DNA of 64,000 bases from Parafrankia elaeagni. Its GTDB lineage: Bacteria; Actinomycetota; Actinomycetes; Frankiales; Frankiaceae. The translations under genes were made by a program, and so were the position numbers. The notes under the pieces were generated by a model. That model was not told where the DNA came from. It made no database searches and saw only the letters and a list, made by a program, of their open reading frames with translations. The first letter of the stretch is position 1. Each line of letters opens with the position of its first letter. The stretch is from assembly GCF_000374165.1 (NCBI RefSeq), contig NZ_KB893694.1, forward strand, positions 100-64,099, in the 5' to 3' direction. Below, in pieces: positions 3,670 through 55,462 of this stretch.

Positions 3670-4989
3670 GTGACGGCCGGACACACGGTGGGCGGCGAGC
3701 AGGCCGCCGGACCGGCCGTCACCGACAGCCCCGGGCTCGGCCCGGCCGCCGGGGACCCCGGCAGGGTCGACCGTTCCCGAGGGACGGAGAGCCGCCGGGA
3801 GTCGGCGGCGACAGCCCCGGCCCGGCCCGGCCGCACCAGCCCGGTGACGGTACTCGAAGTGCTCCCGCGGATGGACCGGGCGGGGGAGACGATCCGCGCG
3901 GTCAACCTTCTCCGCAGGCTGGACCCGGCGGAGTACCGGCTGCTGTTCTGCGTCACCTCCGCCCACCACGGCTCGATGGACGAGGAGATCCGGGCGCTCG
4001 GCGGCGAGGTCTACCACTGCCCCGCCGGCCCGCGGTTCCCACTCGCCTTTCACCGGCTGCTGCGTGAGGTCCGGCCGGACCTCGTCCATGCGGGCGTGGG
4101 GGTGTTCTCCGGAGTTGTGCTGGCGGTGGCCCGGGCGGCCGGGGTGCGGCGCCGGGTCGCGCACTTCTTCACCACCACCGACCAGCGCGGTGACACCGTG
4201 GGCGGGCGCCTGCGGCGTACCGCCGGGCGGGTGTTGCTCGACGCCTTCGCCACCGACCTGCTCGCGGTCAGCGAGGCGGCCATGCGCGGCCAGTGGCGCG
4301 AGAGCTGGCGCCTGGACCCGCGGTGCCGCGTCATCTACAACGGCGTCGAGCTCGAGCCGTTCGGCGTGGCCATCGCGGGCCAGCGCCCCCTGCCCTCCCT
4401 CCCCGACCTGGACGACTTCGGGGACGTCGTGACGCAGCCGCTGACCGTCCTGCACATCGCCCGTCCCGACCCGGTCAAGAACCGGTCCCGCGCGGTCGAG
4501 ATCGTCGCGGCGATGTGCACCCGCGGTTTCGACGCCCGGCTGCGGGTCGTCGGGCGGCAGTCCGAGGAGGAGACCGAGGGGCTGCTGACGCTCGCCCGCG
4601 GGCTGGGAGTATCCGACCGTGTCGAGTTCCTCGGGGAGCGCGGCGACGTACCGAAGCTCCTGGTCAACTCGTCGCTGCTGCTGGTGACCTCGCTGCGCGA
4701 GGGGCTGCCGAGCGTGGTGCTCGAGGCCTGCGCCGTCGGCACCCCGGTGCTGTCGTCCGACCTCCCGGGCGTGGCGGAGATCGCCCGGGTGCTGCCCGGG
4801 ATCACCATGCTGCCCCTGAGCACCCCGAACGAGATCTGGGCCAGCACCGCGGCCGATCTCGCCATCGTGCCGCCCACCCTGGACGAGCGTCGGGAGGCGA
4901 TGCGCCGGCTGCGGCGCTCGCCGTTCACCATGGAGAACTGGCAGCGCGACATCACCGCCGTCTGGTCGGAGCCGCAGTCGCGGCCGTAG
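3670..4989 (+). CDS. GT4-family glycosyltransferase
   Basis: A cytoplasmic, retaining GT-B glycosyltransferase of 439 residues that probably adds a sugar to a lipid-linked polysaccharide intermediate. After a low-complexity lead of about 55 residues the GT4 N-domain starts at VTVLEVLPRMDRAGE; RPDLVHAGVGVFSG and VIYNGVEL mark the domain border, and the C-domain shows LHIARPDPVKN, LRVVGRQSEE and the donor-site region SLREGLPSVVLEACAVGTPVLSSD with the conserved E-x7-E spacing (Glu of REGLPS and Glu of LEACA). Donor and acceptor cannot be read from the sequence. It lies 238 bp behind the dehydrogenase gene; that gap contains a less GC-rich patch around 3480-3520 that could hold its promoter. GTG 3670 is the first start in frame, but the true start may be further in. 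Confidence 0.85.
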   Translation: MTAGHTVGGEQAAGPAVTDSPGLGPAAGDPGRVDRSRGTESRRESAATAPARPGRTSPVTVLEVLPRMDRAGETIRAVNLLRRLDPAEYRLLFCVTSAHHGSMDEEIRALGGEVYHCPAGPRFPLAFHRLLREVRPDLVHAGVGVFSGVVLAVARAAGVRRRVAHFFTTTDQRGDTVGGRLRRTAGRVLLDAFATDLLAVSEAAMRGQWRESWRLDPRCRVIYNGVELEPFGVAIAGQRPLPSLPDLDDFGDVVTQPLTVLHIARPDPVKNRSRAVEIVAAMCTRGFDARLRVVGRQSEEETEGLLTLARGLGVSDRVEFLGERGDVPKLLVNSSLLLVTSLREGLPSVVLEACAVGTPVLSSDLPGVAEIARVLPGITMLPLSTPNEIWASTAADLAIVPPTLDERREAMRRLRRSPFTMENWQRDITAVWSEPQSRP

Positions 4990-5461
4990 CCGAGCGGTAG
5001 CGGCGGCCGTCCGACGGTCGTAGCGTGGCCGACGGGGACCGACGGTCAGGTCTGTCCCACCCGTCCAAGGTGGACCCGGCCGGGGTGGGACATCCCACCT
5101 TGTGCCGGGGTGCGTTCGGGGCGTGCCGGCAGGATGCCGAACGTCCCGTGCTGCCCGGCCGGTGGGCATGAGGTGCACGTCCGGACGGACCACCTGATAT
5201 TTTTAGCGTTGCTAACTAAATGGTGACGCGGATGGCCGGGACCGTTTGCCGGTGTCCGGGAGGCGATGGTCACACTCCTGGCGGCCCTTGCTCGAGAGCT
5301 ACCAGCCGCTCTGGCCGTCGCCGTCACCCCTGGGAGTGCCAGGATGGGGCGAGAGGTGGTCGACCGTGACGAACTCAGGGTCGGGCATCTGTGATCGCTG
5401 CTGGTGTCGAACCTCCCCGCCGACGAGAGGTGGGTGAGGTGACGAGGAGGAGACGAAGGCC
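4990..5461. other. Gene-free upstream region of the aconitase gene
   Basis: About 470 bp with no coding sequence I can support on either strand. It holds an AT-rich palindrome at 5202-5220 and a strong purine-rich ribosome site (GAGGAGGAGACGAAGG) immediately before the aconitase start, so it is read here as a regulatory leader and promoter region. Confidence 0.55.
5202..5220. promoter_or_regulatory. AT-rich palindrome upstream of acn, candidate operator
   Basis: TTAGC, three bases, GCTAA form perfect arms at 5203-5215, and TTTAG/CTAAA form a wider pair at 5202-5206 and 5216-5220. The patch from about 5196 to 5222 is strikingly AT-rich inside GC-rich DNA and lies about 240 bp before the aconitase start. 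A dimeric repressor site is the simplest reading; the protein is not identified and no regulator gene is adjacent. Confidence 0.4.
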
Positions 5462-8245
<2,784 letters not shown>

Positions 8246-49491: not shown

Positions 49492-50265
49492 ATGAGCGGA
49501 CTTCTCGAAGGCAAGCGCGTTCTCGTCACCGGCGTCCTGACCGAGGCGTCCATCGCGTTCAGCGTTGCCCGTATCGCGCAGGAACAGGGCGCCTCGGTGG
49601 TCCTCACCGGGTTCGGCCGTGGCCTGTCGCTCACCCGCCGCATCGCCCGCCGCCTGCCGACCGAGGCCCCGGTCGTCGAGCTCGACGTCACCGACGAGGA
49701 GCACCTGGCCGGCCTGGCCGCCAAGGTCCTCGAGCACGTCGACGGGCTGGACGGGGTGCTGCACGCGATCGGTTTCGCGCCGGAGTCCGTGCTGGGTGGC
49801 AAGCCGTTCGTCGAGGCCGCGTGGTCCGAGGTCGGCACCGCGCTGCAGGTCTCCACCTGGTCACTGGCGTCGCTGACCCGGGCCACCCTGCCGTTGTTCG
49901 GCGAGCGCGCCAGCGTCGTCGGGCTCGACTTCGACGCCACCGTCGCCTGGCCGTCCTACGACTGGATGGGCGTCGCCAAGGCCGGACTGGCGTCGGCGGC
50001 CCGCTACCTGGCCCGTGACCTCGGCCCGCGCGGAGTCCGGGTCAACCTCGTCTCGGCCGGCCCGCTGCGGACCATGGCGGCCAAGTCCATCCCCGGTTTC
50101 GGGCAGTTCGAGGAGGTCTGGGGCACCCGCGCGCCGCTCGGCTGGGACATGCAGGACACCGCGCCGGCCGCCCAGGCCTGCGTCGCCCTGTTGTCGGAGT
50201 GGTTTCCCGCCACGACCGGCGAGATCGTGCACGTCGACGGCGGGTTCCACGCCATCGGGGCGTGA
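49492..50265 (+). CDS. fabI: Enoyl-[acyl-carrier-protein] reductase (NADH), InhA-like
   Basis: A 257-residue enoyl-ACP reductase catalysing the last reduction of each fatty-acid elongation cycle. It starts with LLEGKRVLVTGVLTEASIAFSVA, the FabI/InhA nucleotide-binding pattern in which the third glycine is replaced; LDVTDEEHL, GVLHAIGFAPE, the catalytic YDWMGVAKAGL (Tyr-x6-Lys spacing) and VSAGPLRTMAAKSIPGF follow. The enzyme class is the isoniazid/triclosan target. ATG 49492 is the family start. In many actinobacteria fabI is directly next to fabG and hemH; here fabG and hemH lie 4.5 kb away beyond three minus-strand genes. A perfect 13-bp hairpin ends the gene. Confidence 0.96.
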   Translation: MSGLLEGKRVLVTGVLTEASIAFSVARIAQEQGASVVLTGFGRGLSLTRRIARRLPTEAPVVELDVTDEEHLAGLAAKVLEHVDGLDGVLHAIGFAPESVLGGKPFVEAAWSEVGTALQVSTWSLASLTRATLPLFGERASVVGLDFDATVAWPSYDWMGVAKAGLASAARYLARDLGPRGVRVNLVSAGPLRTMAAKSIPGFGQFEEVWGTRAPLGWDMQDTAPAAQACVALLSEWFPATTGEIVHVDGGFHAIGA

Positions 50266-50349: not shown

Positions 50350-51075
50350 TCAGCCGTGCCGGGCAGCGGCGGACGCGGTGCCGAGCCAGGTGTGGGGGTT
50401 GCCCTCCCAGCACCATCCCAGCTTCGGCGCCCGGCCGGAGATCCACATCGCCGGCACCCGGCGGTCACCCCGCCGTGATCCGGAGAGCATGAAGCAGTTG
50501 TTCTTCTCCAGCGCCTCCGGGAAGTGGGTGACCACGGCGATCCCCTCGTGGATCGTCAGCGGCGAGCGCCCCCGCTCGAGGACCGCGGGCAGCGCGTCCG
50601 CGGGACGGATCCCGCGGAACTCCTCCCCGCGTTCGATGTCGGTCAGCAGATACACCCCGGCGTGGGGCAGGTTGAGAATCGGCAGCGGCTGGTAGGGCCT
50701 GAGCCCGTCCTCACCGTGGTTGCGGTCGACGATCCCGGCGTCGGCGCGGCCGACGAGGGTGAGCAGCGGAACGAGGTCCTCAGCCCGGACAAGCTCCCCC
50801 GACACGACCAGGACGAACGGCATCCAGGACCGCGTCGCGGGCCGGTAGGGGCCGGGCAGGGCGGAGTGGGCCACCGCGCGCAGCGGCTCGCAGAGCGCCT
50901 CGAACTGCGCGGCGTCCATCCCCGCCAGCGCCGGGTATCCCAGTCGCACCAGGCCCGCGACCTGCCGGTCGAAGGCCAGATCGAGCGGATCGGCCCAGGC
51001 CGCGGGTTCCTGCCCGCCCGGCCCGAACTCGGTGCTTCGCGCGGCGGTGCCCAATGTCGCGGCGCGGCTCGGCAT
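50350..51075 (-). CDS. DUF5701 family protein
   Basis: A 241-residue soluble protein of the actinobacterial DUF5701 family; no activity is known. Conserved-looking blocks are FDRQVAGLVRLGYPALAG, VPLLTLVGRADAGIVDR, GVYLLTDIERGEEFRGIRP, RSPLTIHEGIAVVTHFPEALEKN and the C-terminal GSRRGDRRVPAMWISGRAPK, then LGWCWEGNPHTWLGTASAA. The concentration of Trp, Cys and His at the C-terminus suggests a binding site. ATG 51075 follows a GAGGGG ribosome site. It is on the same strand as the AceE-like gene, 374 bp downstream of it. Confidence 0.85.
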   Translation of the reverse strand: MPSRAATLGTAARSTEFGPGGQEPAAWADPLDLAFDRQVAGLVRLGYPALAGMDAAQFEALCEPLRAVAHSALPGPYRPATRSWMPFVLVVSGELVRAEDLVPLLTLVGRADAGIVDRNHGEDGLRPYQPLPILNLPHAGVYLLTDIERGEEFRGIRPADALPAVLERGRSPLTIHEGIAVVTHFPEALEKNNCFMLSGSRRGDRRVPAMWISGRAPKLGWCWEGNPHTWLGTASAAARHG

Positions 51076-51449: not shown

Positions 51450-54329
51450 TCAGCCGCCGGCGGACTCGTCGATCAGGTCGAGGGCCGCGCCGACGATGGT
51501 CGCCGCGTCCACCGGTACCCGCTCGCCCGCGGCCGGCGGCGGTGCCGGCGTGGATGCCGGGCCGCCCGTCGGCCCCGGAGCGGCCGAACCGAGCGTGGTG
51601 ATGTGCGCCCCGTGCACTCCCGCCAGGAAGCCCAGCGCGCGCGGGTCACCGTCCACCACCGTCAGCAGCGGTCCGCGCCGGCCGGGCGGGAACAGCTCGG
51701 CCAGGATGGCCTCGTCGGCGTCGGCCAGCCCCCGGCGGGCCTGCAGCGCGTCGAACAACAGATCGGGGGATGTCACGCAGACCACGCCGATCTCCTGGCG
51801 CAGCCCCGCGCTGAGCTCGTCCGCGGCGCGTAGCACCTCCGGCATGACCGCACCCATGCCGACCAGGGTCACGGGTGCCGTCGGCTCGCCGCCGCGCAGC
51901 CGGTAGCCGCCCGCGAGCACGGCTGCGCGCCGCCGCCACCAGGCGGCCGTGTCGGTGGGCAGGGCTGCCAGCCGCTGGTCGACCGGCCGGGCACTCAGCC
52001 TGATCAGGCTGGACGCCCCGTCGACCCGGCCGAGCCGGTCCAGCGCCGCGAACAGGCACCAGACGAGGTCCTGCGCGAAGGCCGGCTCCCAGCCGGTGAT
52101 CCCGGGCACGCTGACCTGGCCGTGCCGCCAGCCACCCGGGCGGGCCGGGTCGACCCCGGTGTCCGCGACGGCGAGCAGCGACCGCCCGTCGCCGGCGCCG
52201 CTGCTCGCCCAGCCGGGCAGCACCCGGGGAACAGCCATCTCGTCGGCGACGCCGATCGGCAGCAGCGGCAGCCCGAGCCGGCTCCAGGCGACGCCGAGCG
52301 ACGCCAGCACGCCACCGAACGCACTCGCCGACAGCCCGCTGGCGACGTGGCGCCCGCCGTCGGCCGCTGGACCGTCCAGCTCCGAGGGGACCGCCTCCGC
52401 GGCGTCGTCGATCCAGCCGCGGAGGACCCGGTCGCAGTCCCGGGTGGAGATCGTCACGACCGCCGGGGCCGCCTCCGGGACGAGCGCGGACAGCTCCCGC
52501 AACGCGGTGCCGAAGATCTCCTGGGTCGACCGGAACCCCTGATAGGCATGCCCGGTGTGGGCCGGCAGGGGAGCGGGTGCGGCGAGGGCCAGTGGTGCCC
52601 GGTCAAGGTAGGACGCCACATGCCGGGCGAGCCGCCCGCCGGGCGAGGCCACGGGCAGCGGCGCCGCCCAGCGGTCGCCGGTGCGCCGCACCAGCTCGTG
52701 CCCCGGGGGAAGCACGGATTCCGCGGATCCCGTGGGCGGTGCGGACGGTGTGGCCCGCCCGGGGCCGCTGGTGGGCAGCCCGGCAGCGGCAGCGGCTGTC
52801 CCCGGGGCCGGGGCCGGGCCGGGGGTCTGCTCGGTCAGCTGGTGATCCCCGGAGTCCGGCGCTGGTGGCCCGGGGAGCGGGCCGGTGTAGGCGAACAGCA
52901 CCGTGGGGCGGTCCGCGGCCACCTCGTCGAACGCGTCGATGACCAGCGGCAGGTCGTGGCCGCCCAGGTCGCGCAGTGCCGCGTGGATCTCGTCGTCGGT
53001 CAGACCGTCGAGCAGGCGGCTCACCCCGATCCCGGCGGCGCCCGGACCAGCGAGCCGGCGCCGCAGCTCCGGTCCGTCCAGGTGGAGCAGCGAGAGGTAC
53101 TCGGCCGGCGCCATCGCGTCGAGCCGGGCGCGCAGCGCGACGCCGCCGGGTGCACCGAACAGGGCGTTGAGCCGGCGGCCGTACCGCAGGGTCAGCACCT
53201 GCCAGCCGGCGGCCTCGAACATCCGAGCCGCCCGGGCGGGCGACCCGACCCCGCCCGGTGGGACGCCGGCCGGGCCGGCCGCCTCGCCCGGCACGGCGCC
53301 GGTGACCAGGACCACCCAGAAGAGCTCGCCCAGATGCGAGACCCGTTCGTCGGTCACGGCCTCCCAGACGGTGGAGTCACGCAGCTCGGCGAAGTCGATG
53401 AGGCAGATCTGCCGGCCGTGCGGCGCCCGGTCGAACCGCGTGCCGGCGAACCGGCCGGCCAGCGCCGACCAGATCGTCCCCGTCGGCCCGACGTTGCCCG
53501 CCCCGGTCGCCCGCGGGGGCCGCCGCCGCGCCGCGCCGGCCGCGCCAGCCAGGTCGGTGCCGGCGGTGCCGGCGGAGGCGAGCGTCGTCGCCGCGCCGCC
53601 TGCCCATGTTCCTGTTCCCGGCCCTGTTCCTGGCGGTGGTGACGCGTCCGGTACGGGTGTGTCCGGGGCGAGTGCGTCCGGCGTGCCGGGAGCCGGCCCA
53701 AGCCCCTCGGCGGCGGTGCGCAGCACCTGGTGGACGGCACCGAGCAGCGGGCCCGCGTGCGGCGTGACCAGGACCCTGTCCTCGACCCGCAGCGTGTCGA
53801 ACCACAGCGCGGCGGCGACGGTCGAGGCCGCCGCGCACATCGCCCGGTCGGCGTCGGCGTTCCGCGGGGCGCGTGCCCCGGTGGACTCCGCGTGGTCGAT
53901 ACCGGCCGCGGCGATCGCGCGCAGCCGGCCCTCGACCGCGGCGAGCGCACCCAGATCGAGCACGCCACCGGGCGGTCCCGGAACGATCTCGGCGGCAGGG
54001 GGCTCGCCGGGGAGGCGATCGACGCTGTCACCGACGGGCGGCGTGACCTCACCCGTCGTTCCGTCCCCGCCCACGCTCTCGGCGCCGCCGAGCTGGTCCG
54101 GGGCGCCTGCCCTGGCTGCCGGGCCGGCGCCGCGGCTCGGGTCCGCGATGCCCATGGGGCCGGCGCCGCCGGGCGCCACCTCGTCCACCGCGGGCCGCGG
54201 GCCCGGTCCGGTCCCGCCGGTGGGGTCTGGCGGCCCGGTCGTCAGTTCGTCACGTCGCCCATGACCGCCCGGTACGTACTCGCCCCCGGCGCGGATGTCC
54301 GTCCTGCGCACTCCCCGTCTCCGTCCCAT
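51450..54329 (-). CDS. Degenerate pyruvate dehydrogenase E1 (AceE-like) protein, probable pseudoenzyme
   Basis: A 959-residue protein collinear with homodimeric pyruvate dehydrogenase E1 (AceE) but lacking its catalytic motifs. Recognisable blocks are EDRVLVTPHAGPLLGAVHQVL, ICLIDFAELRDST (about 308-320, aligned with GDGEMDEPES), AGWQVLTLRYGRRLNALFG, LTDDEIHAALRDLGGHDLP (GGHD at 456-459), QEIFGTALREL, and a transketolase C-terminal-type domain (VTLVGMGAVMPEVLRAADELS, VVCVTSPDLL). The GDG...NCNLQ thiamine-diphosphate/Mg2+ site reads IDF...VVLVTGAV, and the INEAGS motif with the activating glutamate reads LSASAFG (666-672). Gly/Pro/Ala linkers separate the blocks. The frame is intact, so the gene is retained; a structural, regulatory or new role is inferred. 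ATG 54329 is only a maximal start; the first 120 residues are low-complexity. Confidence 0.8.
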   Translation of the reverse strand: MGRRRGVRRTDIRAGGEYVPGGHGRRDELTTGPPDPTGGTGPGPRPAVDEVAPGGAGPMGIADPSRGAGPAARAGAPDQLGGAESVGGDGTTGEVTPPVGDSVDRLPGEPPAAEIVPGPPGGVLDLGALAAVEGRLRAIAAAGIDHAESTGARAPRNADADRAMCAAASTVAAALWFDTLRVEDRVLVTPHAGPLLGAVHQVLRTAAEGLGPAPGTPDALAPDTPVPDASPPPGTGPGTGTWAGGAATTLASAGTAGTDLAGAAGAARRRPPRATGAGNVGPTGTIWSALAGRFAGTRFDRAPHGRQICLIDFAELRDSTVWEAVTDERVSHLGELFWVVLVTGAVPGEAAGPAGVPPGGVGSPARAARMFEAAGWQVLTLRYGRRLNALFGAPGGVALRARLDAMAPAEYLSLLHLDGPELRRRLAGPGAAGIGVSRLLDGLTDDEIHAALRDLGGHDLPLVIDAFDEVAADRPTVLFAYTGPLPGPPAPDSGDHQLTEQTPGPAPAPGTAAAAAGLPTSGPGRATPSAPPTGSAESVLPPGHELVRRTGDRWAAPLPVASPGGRLARHVASYLDRAPLALAAPAPLPAHTGHAYQGFRSTQEIFGTALRELSALVPEAAPAVVTISTRDCDRVLRGWIDDAAEAVPSELDGPAADGGRHVASGLSASAFGGVLASLGVAWSRLGLPLLPIGVADEMAVPRVLPGWASSGAGDGRSLLAVADTGVDPARPGGWRHGQVSVPGITGWEPAFAQDLVWCLFAALDRLGRVDGASSLIRLSARPVDQRLAALPTDTAAWWRRRAAVLAGGYRLRGGEPTAPVTLVGMGAVMPEVLRAADELSAGLRQEIGVVCVTSPDLLFDALQARRGLADADEAILAELFPPGRRGPLLTVVDGDPRALGFLAGVHGAHITTLGSAAPGPTGGPASTPAPPPAAGERVPVDAATIVGAALDLIDESAGG

Positions 54330-54341
54330 CGCGCCGCCGAA

Positions 54342-54650
54342 CTACCGGGAGTCCAGACGTGCGGACGGGGCGGAATGTTGCGCGAGCGCCGCGAGCCGGG
54401 GTGCGAGGACGTCCGGCGGTGCGTCGACCTCCACGAACTTGACCTTTCCGATCGAGCGGCTGAGCGTGACGTCCGCCCGCCGCACTCCCAGCGCCGCCGC
54501 GAGCGCACGCAGCGCAGCCTCGTTGGCGCGCCCGGCGACCGCGGGCTCCCGCACGCGCACCACCAGCAGCTGACCGTGGGTGGGATCGGCCGTTGTCGGC
54601 CCCACCGCGGTCCGGTCGGACGCGGGACGCACCCGGATCGCAACGCGCAT
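54342..54650 (-). CDS. DUF167 (YggU-type) protein
   Basis: A 102-residue protein of the small, widely conserved DUF167 family. MRVAIRVRPASDRTAVG opens the fold; LLVVRVREPAVAGRANEAALRALAAALG (two halves) and VTLSRSIGKVKFVEVDAP are the usual central blocks. The role is not established. ATG 54650 coincides with the family start; the frame is open 16 codons further. Its stop is 12 bp before the AceE-like frame, so the two are probably co-transcribed. It diverges from fabG across 95 bp. Confidence 0.88.
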   Translation of the reverse strand: MRVAIRVRPASDRTAVGPTTADPTHGQLLVVRVREPAVAGRANEAALRALAAALGVRRADVTLSRSIGKVKFVEVDAPPDVLAPRLAALAQHSAPSARLDSR

Positions 54651-54732
54651 CCCACTATCGTCCCTGACGTGTCGAGGCGCCGGGCCGGCGAGTGTCACGG
54701 GTGCCTGCGTTCCTTGTGGTGCGTCCGGCCGC

Positions 54733-54738
54733 TACGAT
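54733..54738 (+). promoter_or_regulatory. -10-like box of fabG, possible leaderless start
   Basis: TACGAT fits the TAnnnT -10 pattern and lies seven bases before ATG 54746. No Shine-Dalgarno sequence intervenes. A -35 box at proper distance was not seen. Confidence 0.35.
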
Positions 54739-54745
54739 CCCGGCC

Positions 54746-55462
54746 ATGGTCGAGAACGAGGGTCGAGTGGCGCTGGTGACGGGTGGCAACCGAGGGATCG
54801 GGGCAGCCTGCGCGGCCGCGCTCGCCGCCTCGGGGGACCGGGTCGCCGTGGCCAGCCGCGGCGGCGAGGCGCCGGCCGGGATGCTCGGGGTGCGGCTCGA
54901 CGTGACCAGCGCCGACAGCGTCGACAAGGCGTTCGCCGAGGTCGAGGCGGAGCTCGGGCCGGTCGAGATCGTCGTCTCCAACGCCGGGGTCGTTCGCGAC
55001 ACCCTGCTGCCGATGATGTCGGAGGACGCCTTCCAGGAGGTCGTCGACACGAACCTGCTCGGCGCCTACCGGGTGGCCAAGCGTGCGTCCCGCTCGATGA
55101 TCCGCCGCCGGACCGGGCGGTTGATCTTCGTCTCGTCGGTGGTGGGGCTTTCCGGCGGGCCGGGGCAGTCGAACTACGCCGCGTCCAAGGCGGGTCTGGT
55201 GGGCTTCGCCCGGTCGCTGGCGCGGGAGCTCGGCGGGCGCGGAATCACGTCCAACGTGGTCGCGCCGGGGCCCATCCGCACCGACATGACCGACGCGCTG
55301 ACCGACGCGCAGCGGGAGTACCTGATCTCGCACGCGCCCGCGGGACGGATGGGTGACCCGGCCGAGGTCGCCGCCGCCGTGGTCTTTCTCGCCTCGCCCG
55401 GCGCCGCCTACGTCAACGGCGCGGTGCTCCCGGTCGACGGCGGCGCGGGCATGGGCCACTGA
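54746..55462 (+). CDS. fabG: 3-oxoacyl-[acyl-carrier-protein] reductase
   Basis: A 238-residue short-chain dehydrogenase reducing 3-ketoacyl-ACP with NADPH. The cofactor motif VALVTGGNRGIGAACA begins at residue 7; VSNAGVVRDTLLPMMSEDAF, NLLGAYRVAK, the catalytic Ser-Tyr-Lys in FVSSVVGLSGGPGQSNYAASKAG, and NVVAPGPIRTDMTDAL follow. The opening MVENEGRVALVTG is the mycobacterial MabA/FabG1 type, and the downstream hemH fits the actinobacterial fabG-inhA-hemH arrangement, except that fabI has moved away. ATG 54746 is chosen because homology begins there; an upstream start at 54692 is unlikely. Confidence 0.95.
   Translation: MVENEGRVALVTGGNRGIGAACAAALAASGDRVAVASRGGEAPAGMLGVRLDVTSADSVDKAFAEVEAELGPVEIVVSNAGVVRDTLLPMMSEDAFQEVVDTNLLGAYRVAKRASRSMIRRRTGRLIFVSSVVGLSGGPGQSNYAASKAGLVGFARSLARELGGRGITSNVVAPGPIRTDMTDALTDAQREYLISHAPAGRMGDPAEVAAAVVFLASPGAAYVNGAVLPVDGGAGMGH

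Follow-up and report, generated by a model that had tools for sequence, protein, structure and literature searches.

Whether a protein built like the E1 component of pyruvate dehydrogenase can be retained after the motifs that bind its cofactor, thiamine diphosphate (ThDP), have been lost, and for what use, is the question raised by one gene of the window, by which is meant the whole stretch of 64,000 nucleotides analysed here (contig NZ_KB893694.1). The gene, called pseudo-E1 below, lies on the minus strand, with its ATG at 54329 and its TGA at 51450, and its product is 959 amino acids long. Judged by sequence comparison, this product is probably an old and true pseudoenzyme of the E1/transketolase type, in which ThDP binding and catalysis were lost, most likely once, and which has since been kept for its fold. 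Three properties by which a pseudoenzyme is recognised were found: homology to a family with intact members, loss of catalytic residues across orthologues and retention by selection. The locus presents a bacterial protein of E1 build, without the vitamin-B1 catalytic motifs, that is kept under selection in most of the sampled Frankia-type bacteria. The gene and its parts are as follows; dN/dS is the ratio of nonsynonymous to synonymous substitution rates, GC the guanine-plus-cytosine content and L009 the locus of Parafrankia colletiae.

51450–54329, minus strand: pseudo-E1 gene, 959 amino acids (P0001); identified by codon-position GC, NCBIfam and profile–profile match.
54006–54329, minus strand: residues 1–108, an arginine-rich N-terminal peptide MGRRRGVRRTDIR followed by a proline/glycine-rich tail of low conservation; dN/dS 0.93 against L009.
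53844–53861, minus strand: residues 157–162, site of the lost KVGGHQ (now NADADR); motif alignment.
53505–53714, minus strand: linker, residues 206–275, spanning the position of the SYPSR stretch; dN/dS 1.18 against L009.
53286–53396, minus strand: residues 312–348, site of the lost Mg-ThDP motif (GDAELDEG...DxNRQSLD, now DFAELRDS...LVTGAVPG); motif alignment.
52884–53225, minus strand: residues 369–482, the best-kept E1 block, including TDDEIHAALRDLGGHD; alignment to AceE proteins of solved structure.
52665–52874, minus strand: linker, residues 486–555, replacing the NHS loop of intact relatives; dN/dS 1.07 against L009 and motif loss.
52326–52343, minus strand: residues 663–668, site of the lost activating glutamate (ELGIAE, now ASGLSA); motif alignment.

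An uninterrupted frame had been claimed for this interval and was confirmed; the matched frame is also open in all 11 named orthologues. Codon-position GC of the frame is 0.81/0.63/0.90, and the order 2 < 1 < 3 is common to pseudo-E1 and the nearby fabI, DUF5701, fabG and ferrochelatase genes; it is missing from the two long plus-strand open reading frames that overlie pseudo-E1. A chance or wrong-frame reading was ruled out by codon-position GC, homology and selection. Visual comparison shows similar first ~13 residues in numerous orthologues from Parafrankia and Frankia.

Profile–profile alignment (hhalign) of pseudo-E1 with nine intact relatives and the AceE of its own genome gave a probability of 100 and E=2e-104 over 759 columns, and by this near whole-length profile similarity the protein is placed in the E1/transketolase superfamily. 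It falls outside the AceE family itself: the NCBIfam model aceE (TIGR00759) scored E=5.2e-8 and 31.3 bits against a curated cut-off of 859.9 bits, and model TIGR03186 scored E=4.4e-9, far below its cut-off. Alignment to AceE proteins of solved structure (PDB), a check put forward in the original prediction, gave E=0.005 by phmmer and E=5.6e-7 with a profile of nine orthologues, the match lying in block 369–482. Two E1 regions had been described as retained; TDDEI...GGHD is indeed kept, but of the C-terminal transketolase domain only a part is retained, this domain being the sole Pfam match and below threshold.

The derivation from AceE that had been proposed was not upheld, as the nearest relatives form a family of ~780 amino acids, 35–41% identical to the window protein. 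A plasmid tblastn search returned 135 records; the best 12 of the 20 listed were actinobacterial (Rhodococcus, Streptomyces, Mycobacterium and Arthrobacter), 35–42% identical over about residues 280–954, and the best matches, where annotated, were named 'pyruvate dehydrogenase' or 'transketolase'. The best 80 of 201 stretches from a genome-contig scan comprised at least 78 loci, of which 11 are from Frankiaceae (47–90% identity) and 67, going by their titles, from Actinomycetota outside that family (32–38%). Intact relatives measure ~720–800 amino acids, and since the aceE model was matched only from position 77–84 onward in the three ~780-amino-acid relatives tested, this family is, by its sequence profile, a separate actinobacterial AceE-like family and not AceE. 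In the window genome (98% complete) model TIGR03186 detected a true AceE (C42), a 707-amino-acid frame (C114) which is probably a transketolase, and pseudo-E1; no intact ~780-amino-acid member was found there with this model. Descent of pseudo-E1 from the AceE of its own genome was ruled out by the missing aceE N-terminal match of the relatives, by the presence of the true AceE at C42 and by the trees described below. As a side observation, of the 72 intact family members 29 have an Lrp/AsnC-type regulator and 11 an E2 gene no more than 3 kb away, neighbours which suggest that the intact family is an amino-acid or 2-oxo-acid catabolic E1. This family may resemble MdeB (methionine catabolism), though a search of open-licence literature for such a likeness found no paper.

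Loss of the catalytic motifs was assessed against the same 72 intact relatives (67 genome-contig scan loci and five plasmid loci), all of which carry K[VA]GGHQ, STGSVG, GDAE[LM]DEG, D-x-N-R-Q-[ST]-L-D, the last glutamate of ELGIAE, and GGAHQS. In AceE these six motifs make up the Mg-ThDP site, the activating glutamate and the active-site histidines. None is retained in the 12 Frankiaceae proteins compared (11 for the N-terminal motifs, L015 being cut), in all of which LGGHD is retained. In the window protein GDAELDEG has become DFAELRDS, DxNRQSLD LVTGAVPG, ELGIAE ASGLSA, KVGGHQ NADADR, STGSVG ATGAGN and GGAHQS GGWRHG. The erasure of the ThDP motifs that had been predicted was confirmed in AceE terms as well: GDG...N-x-Q reads DFA...T-G-A, and the activating glutamate is gone. 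Among all Frankiaceae pseudo proteins that could be read at these sites (32 genomes; the others at a contig end or N), the GDA motif is altered in 30/30 and the glutamate of ELGIAE in 29/29. Intact catalytic residues at shifted positions, named beforehand as an observation that would speak against a pseudoenzyme, were not found: when 33 pseudo proteins were scanned for G[DE][GAS]-x20-36-N, nine matches turned up in seven of them, all away from the homologous position, and all 72 intact relatives matched in the control.

The state of the old active site was examined in the 222 alignment columns with a conservation of 95% or more among 76 intact sequences; 57 of these columns fall in the active-site motifs as we delimited them and 165 elsewhere. 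In 27 pseudo sequences (genus groups g1, g2 and g7), with fixation taken as at least 90%, the former residue is kept in 4 of the 57 active-site columns against 81 of the 165 others (p=1.5e-9), and a different residue is fixed in 15 of 57 against 12 of 165 (p=4e-4). Charged residues newly fixed at old active-site positions in these three groups are R317, D318, R630, D696, E697 and D723. Mean conservation in the pseudo set is 0.73 in motif columns, 0.74 in all other aligned columns and 0.42 in the linkers. With 4 columns kept, 15 fixed anew and 38 variable, the old active site is, as read from these columns, partly rebuilt and partly relaxed.

The suspicion that pseudo-E1 is a conserved, motif-less relative of E1 was borne out by its distribution. 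Orthologues without the core motifs were found in 32 of 36 Frankiaceae genomes, which rules out a recent, strain-specific loss: 7/7 in the genus of the window (g1), 12/13 in g2, 8/8 in g7, 4/5 in g6, 1/1 in g4 and 0/1 in each of g3 and g5. Group g1 would correspond to Parafrankia, given the 90% identity of pseudo-E1 to the Parafrankia colletiae protein. An order-level search covered the same 36 genomes as the family-level search and gave no further information on distribution. Outside Frankiaceae, the 67 listed scan loci included no pseudo form, all of them having the six motifs. In a class-level search that scored two candidates in each of 296 genomes, 22 non-Frankiaceae genomes had matches of up to 310 bits, with motifs uninspected; as the true pseudo form of genome G027 scores 286 bits in this search, distant pseudo forms may exist elsewhere.

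Purifying selection, which the original prediction had offered as a check, was detected. Between the window protein and L009, dN/dS is 0.07, 0.17 and 0.25 in three E1 blocks, and the blocks homologous to E1 gave 0.18–0.23 in 7/7 pairs from three genus-level groups, against 0.42–0.93 in the rest of the protein (Nei–Gojobori counts, with block limits set by eye and dS up to 1.1 outside the blocks). The glycine/proline linkers said to have grown between the blocks are present and evolve fast, the two long ones and the N-terminal tail at the values listed above and a short C-terminal linker at 0.28 (26 codons). For control genes compared with L009 and L007, dN/dS was 0.09 and 0.05 (FabI), 0 and 0.08 (FabG), 0.05 and 0.26 (DUF5701), 0.25 and 0.19 (ferrochelatase), 0.07 and 0.18 (glycosyltransferase) and 0.29 and 0.73 (SGNH, the latter a poor match over 179 codons). 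Constraint on the fold of pseudo-E1 is thus similar to that on ferrochelatase and looser than that on FabG and FabI.

In a quick tree of 74 rows, from which half of loci L021–L084 and 17 near-copies or fragments were left out, all 28 pseudo rows formed one group (Shimodaira–Hasegawa-like approximate likelihood-ratio support 100). In a careful tree of 60 rows, omitting AceE, the G015 and G025 rows and 11 near-copies, all 20 pseudo rows formed one clade (support 100/100) within the actinobacterial intact family, on a stem of 1.46 changes per column; both trees retain the old active-site columns, so that common motif loss may inflate the clade support, and long branches meet in them. Because the stem is long, the sister of the pseudo clade is not settled in either tree. 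Branches within the clade are mostly ~0.02–0.4 (G024, 1.06), and the long stem is consistent with an episode of rapid change after which constraint returned. An origin from the intact copies now present in Frankiaceae was rejected, as in both trees these copies fall among the other intact members from actinobacteria and apart from the pseudo clade.

The genes that surround pseudo-E1 in the window are the following.

54342–54650, minus strand: DUF167/YggU gene, 102 amino acids; Pfam PF02594, E=1.5e-14, and position.
54692–55462, plus strand: fabG, the divergent neighbour, its start possibly further in, near 54749; Pfam/NCBIfam and position.
49492–50265, plus strand: fabI, the convergent neighbour on the other side of pseudo-E1; NCBIfam PRK07889, above cut-off.
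50350–51075, minus strand: DUF5701 gene, 3' of pseudo-E1, between it and fabI; Pfam; present in 5/32 loci, all Parafrankia-type.

The ATG of pseudo-E1 starts 12 nucleotides after the stop of the DUF167 gene on the same strand, and the two genes are likely to belong to one operon, to judge by this spacing. A bare divergent promoter between pseudo-E1 and fabG was considered and rejected, since that stretch holds the DUF167 gene. Across 32 loci, some of them non-independent (L020 and L115 are apparently the same strain, and L101 and L133 come from a single genome), fabG is upstream and divergent in all 26 where it was found (not in L012, L015, L016, L125, L101 or L106), and DUF167 was found in 20, always upstream and on the strand of pseudo-E1. 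This common position of fabG gives independent support to a single origin. On the far side of pseudo-E1, fabI points the opposite way in loci of the Parafrankia, Frankia and g6 types; the Pseudofrankia locus L014 has it 8.5 kb off and on the same strand, as if inverted, with the fabG side unchanged. No E2 gene was found, with one E2 query, in the 11 Frankiaceae pseudo-E1 loci tested.

Four genomes yielded no pseudo-E1. In G006 the contig stops at fabI, and absence is not demonstrable there. G014 and G016 (63% complete) have an intact family member only; in G014 fabI adjoins fabG with no pseudo-E1 between them, an arrangement which fits a later insertion of the gene. The fourth, G026, is taken up below; in its locus (L139) two short-chain-dehydrogenase-like genes and a transposase-like fragment, recognised by eye, lie between DUF167 and fabI at 4050–7990. 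Three g7 genomes, G029, G034 and G030 (L088, L089 and L090; also L131), carry an intact ~780-amino-acid paralogue elsewhere in the genome besides the pseudo form; that of G029 adjoins GntR-type regulator, amidohydrolase-like and aldehyde-dehydrogenase-like genes (by eye).

These data suggest the following course of events. An ancestor of most Frankiaceae would have come to carry, next to DUF167 and flanked by fabI and fabG, a copy of an actinobacterial AceE-like E1; the lineage of this protein would then have lost ThDP binding and catalysis, most likely once, and been retained for its fold. We infer that the present protein, presumably made together with DUF167, would not bind Mg-ThDP in the usual way or catalyse reactions of 2-oxo acids, and would act as a binding protein, its target being a small ligand that fits the altered pocket or else another protein. 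Its retention under selection despite motif loss points to a new job, probably a non-catalytic one. That the protein serves as such a sensor or scaffold, in connection with fatty-acid synthesis (FabG/FabI) or with the supply of acyl groups or 2-oxo acids, is proposed tentatively as the likeliest role and may well prove wrong; the link to FabG and FabI is one of gene position. A more specific version, in which the former active site is a new ligand pocket lined by the charged residues newly fixed in g1, g2 and g7, so that the protein would sense a metabolite and adjust the elongation of fatty acids at the fabG/fabI locus, is distinctly doubtful, its odds being lowered by the variability of 38 of the 57 old active-site columns.

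Several observations weigh against an old pseudoenzyme kept for its fold. The gene is not universal, being absent from G026 (g6, given as 100% complete) although fabG, DUF167 and fabI are present. Thirty of the 33 loci (32 genomes) match in one frame, but three have a piece in another: in G031 (L128, near 5520–5774) the last ~80 residues with no N nearby, in G024 ~50 residues in mid-protein before a return to frame, with 2 N, and in G023 across 160 N; these may be sequencing or assembly errors or local decay, which are indistinguishable here. Constraint is weaker than on FabG and FabI (0.05–0.09 in three of four comparisons, the fourth without any amino-acid change), and of the three intact-family pairs two (0.05 and 0.04) are more constrained than the blocks, the third giving 0.36. 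Much of the old site is relaxed, with 38 of 57 columns below 90% conservation in the pseudo set against 72 of 165 elsewhere, and of the 15 new residues few recur in the five g6/G015 proteins: D318 and T629 are present in 4/5, and R317, R630, E697 and D723 in none. The histidine of KPHAS, which reads TPHAG in the window protein, is kept in 11/11 of the Frankiaceae proteins compared for the six motifs and in ~68% of 27 pseudo proteins, with arginine in several Frankia forms. Points of this kind, namely the missing gene of G026, the long branches of G015 and G024, the frame changes in 3/33 loci and the loss of the catalytic motifs itself, would be expected of a functionless relic in slow decay; that explanation is nevertheless highly improbable and is already disfavoured by the low dN/dS of the blocks in every pair from three genus-level groups, by the open frame of all named orthologues and by the single frame of 30/33 loci.

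A regulatory or structural subunit of a 2-oxo-acid dehydrogenase complex, paired in a heterodimer with AceE or an intact ~780-amino-acid E1 or occupying an E2 site, is unlikely. E1s of this kind are dimers, pseudo-E1 is of the same family by profile–profile match, and the E2 genes near 11/72 intact relatives indicate that the ~780-amino-acid family can work with E2. The segment of AceE that binds E2 is N-terminal, however, and the first ~77 positions of the aceE model are unmatched in 3/3 intact relatives, with an unrelated tail in their place in pseudo-E1. Moreover, the 11 Frankiaceae loci yielded no E2 gene to the single query, leaving the E2 binding of the original prediction unsupported, and 29 of the 32 carriers, the window genome included, showed no intact paralogue in the family search of draft genomes, so that a dedicated intact partner is not needed. 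A new enzyme, with ThDP-independent catalysis in the altered pocket, would account for the newly fixed charged residues of g1, g2 and g7, but most of these are not common to the g6/G015 forms, the old site largely varies, and fabG, fabI and DUF167 are the sole clue to a substrate or pathway; this explanation is improbable. The preferred reading remains an E1-type pseudoenzyme with a binding role.

No bacterial E1-type pseudoenzyme, and no paper on this gene, was found among the best-ranked literature matches (open-licence papers only). Intact relatives of the protein are clear, its origin is inferred to be single, its place in the genome is fixed and the selection on it can be measured; three genomes, moreover, have both an intact and an inactive paralogue. 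What an E1 fold can do without ThDP is thereby open to direct test. It also cautions that similarity alone is insufficient to annotate such proteins as pyruvate dehydrogenase or transketolase.

Among known systems, the ~780-amino-acid family ('transketolase C-terminal domain-containing'; for example L018 of Streptomyces albidoflavus and L002 of a Rhodococcus koreensis plasmid) is closest, with the same order of blocks and a near whole-length profile match; it differs in retaining the six core catalytic motifs in every member compared, whereas pseudo-E1 has an N-terminal tail and long linkers. Homodimeric AceE (TIGR00759; PDB 1l8a) aligns with block 369–482 and weakly with the C-terminal part, but pseudo-E1 reaches 31 bits against a cut-off of 860, leaves the N-terminal part of the model unmatched and has lost the catalytic motifs. 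Human TKTL1 resembles pseudo-E1 in being a ThDP-fold paralogue of doubted activity, although TKTL1/2 are argued in PMC6334435, from homology models, to be functional transketolases. Pseudo-E1 differs from TKTL1 in that its ThDP motifs are gone and in that it belongs to another branch of the superfamily and another domain of life.

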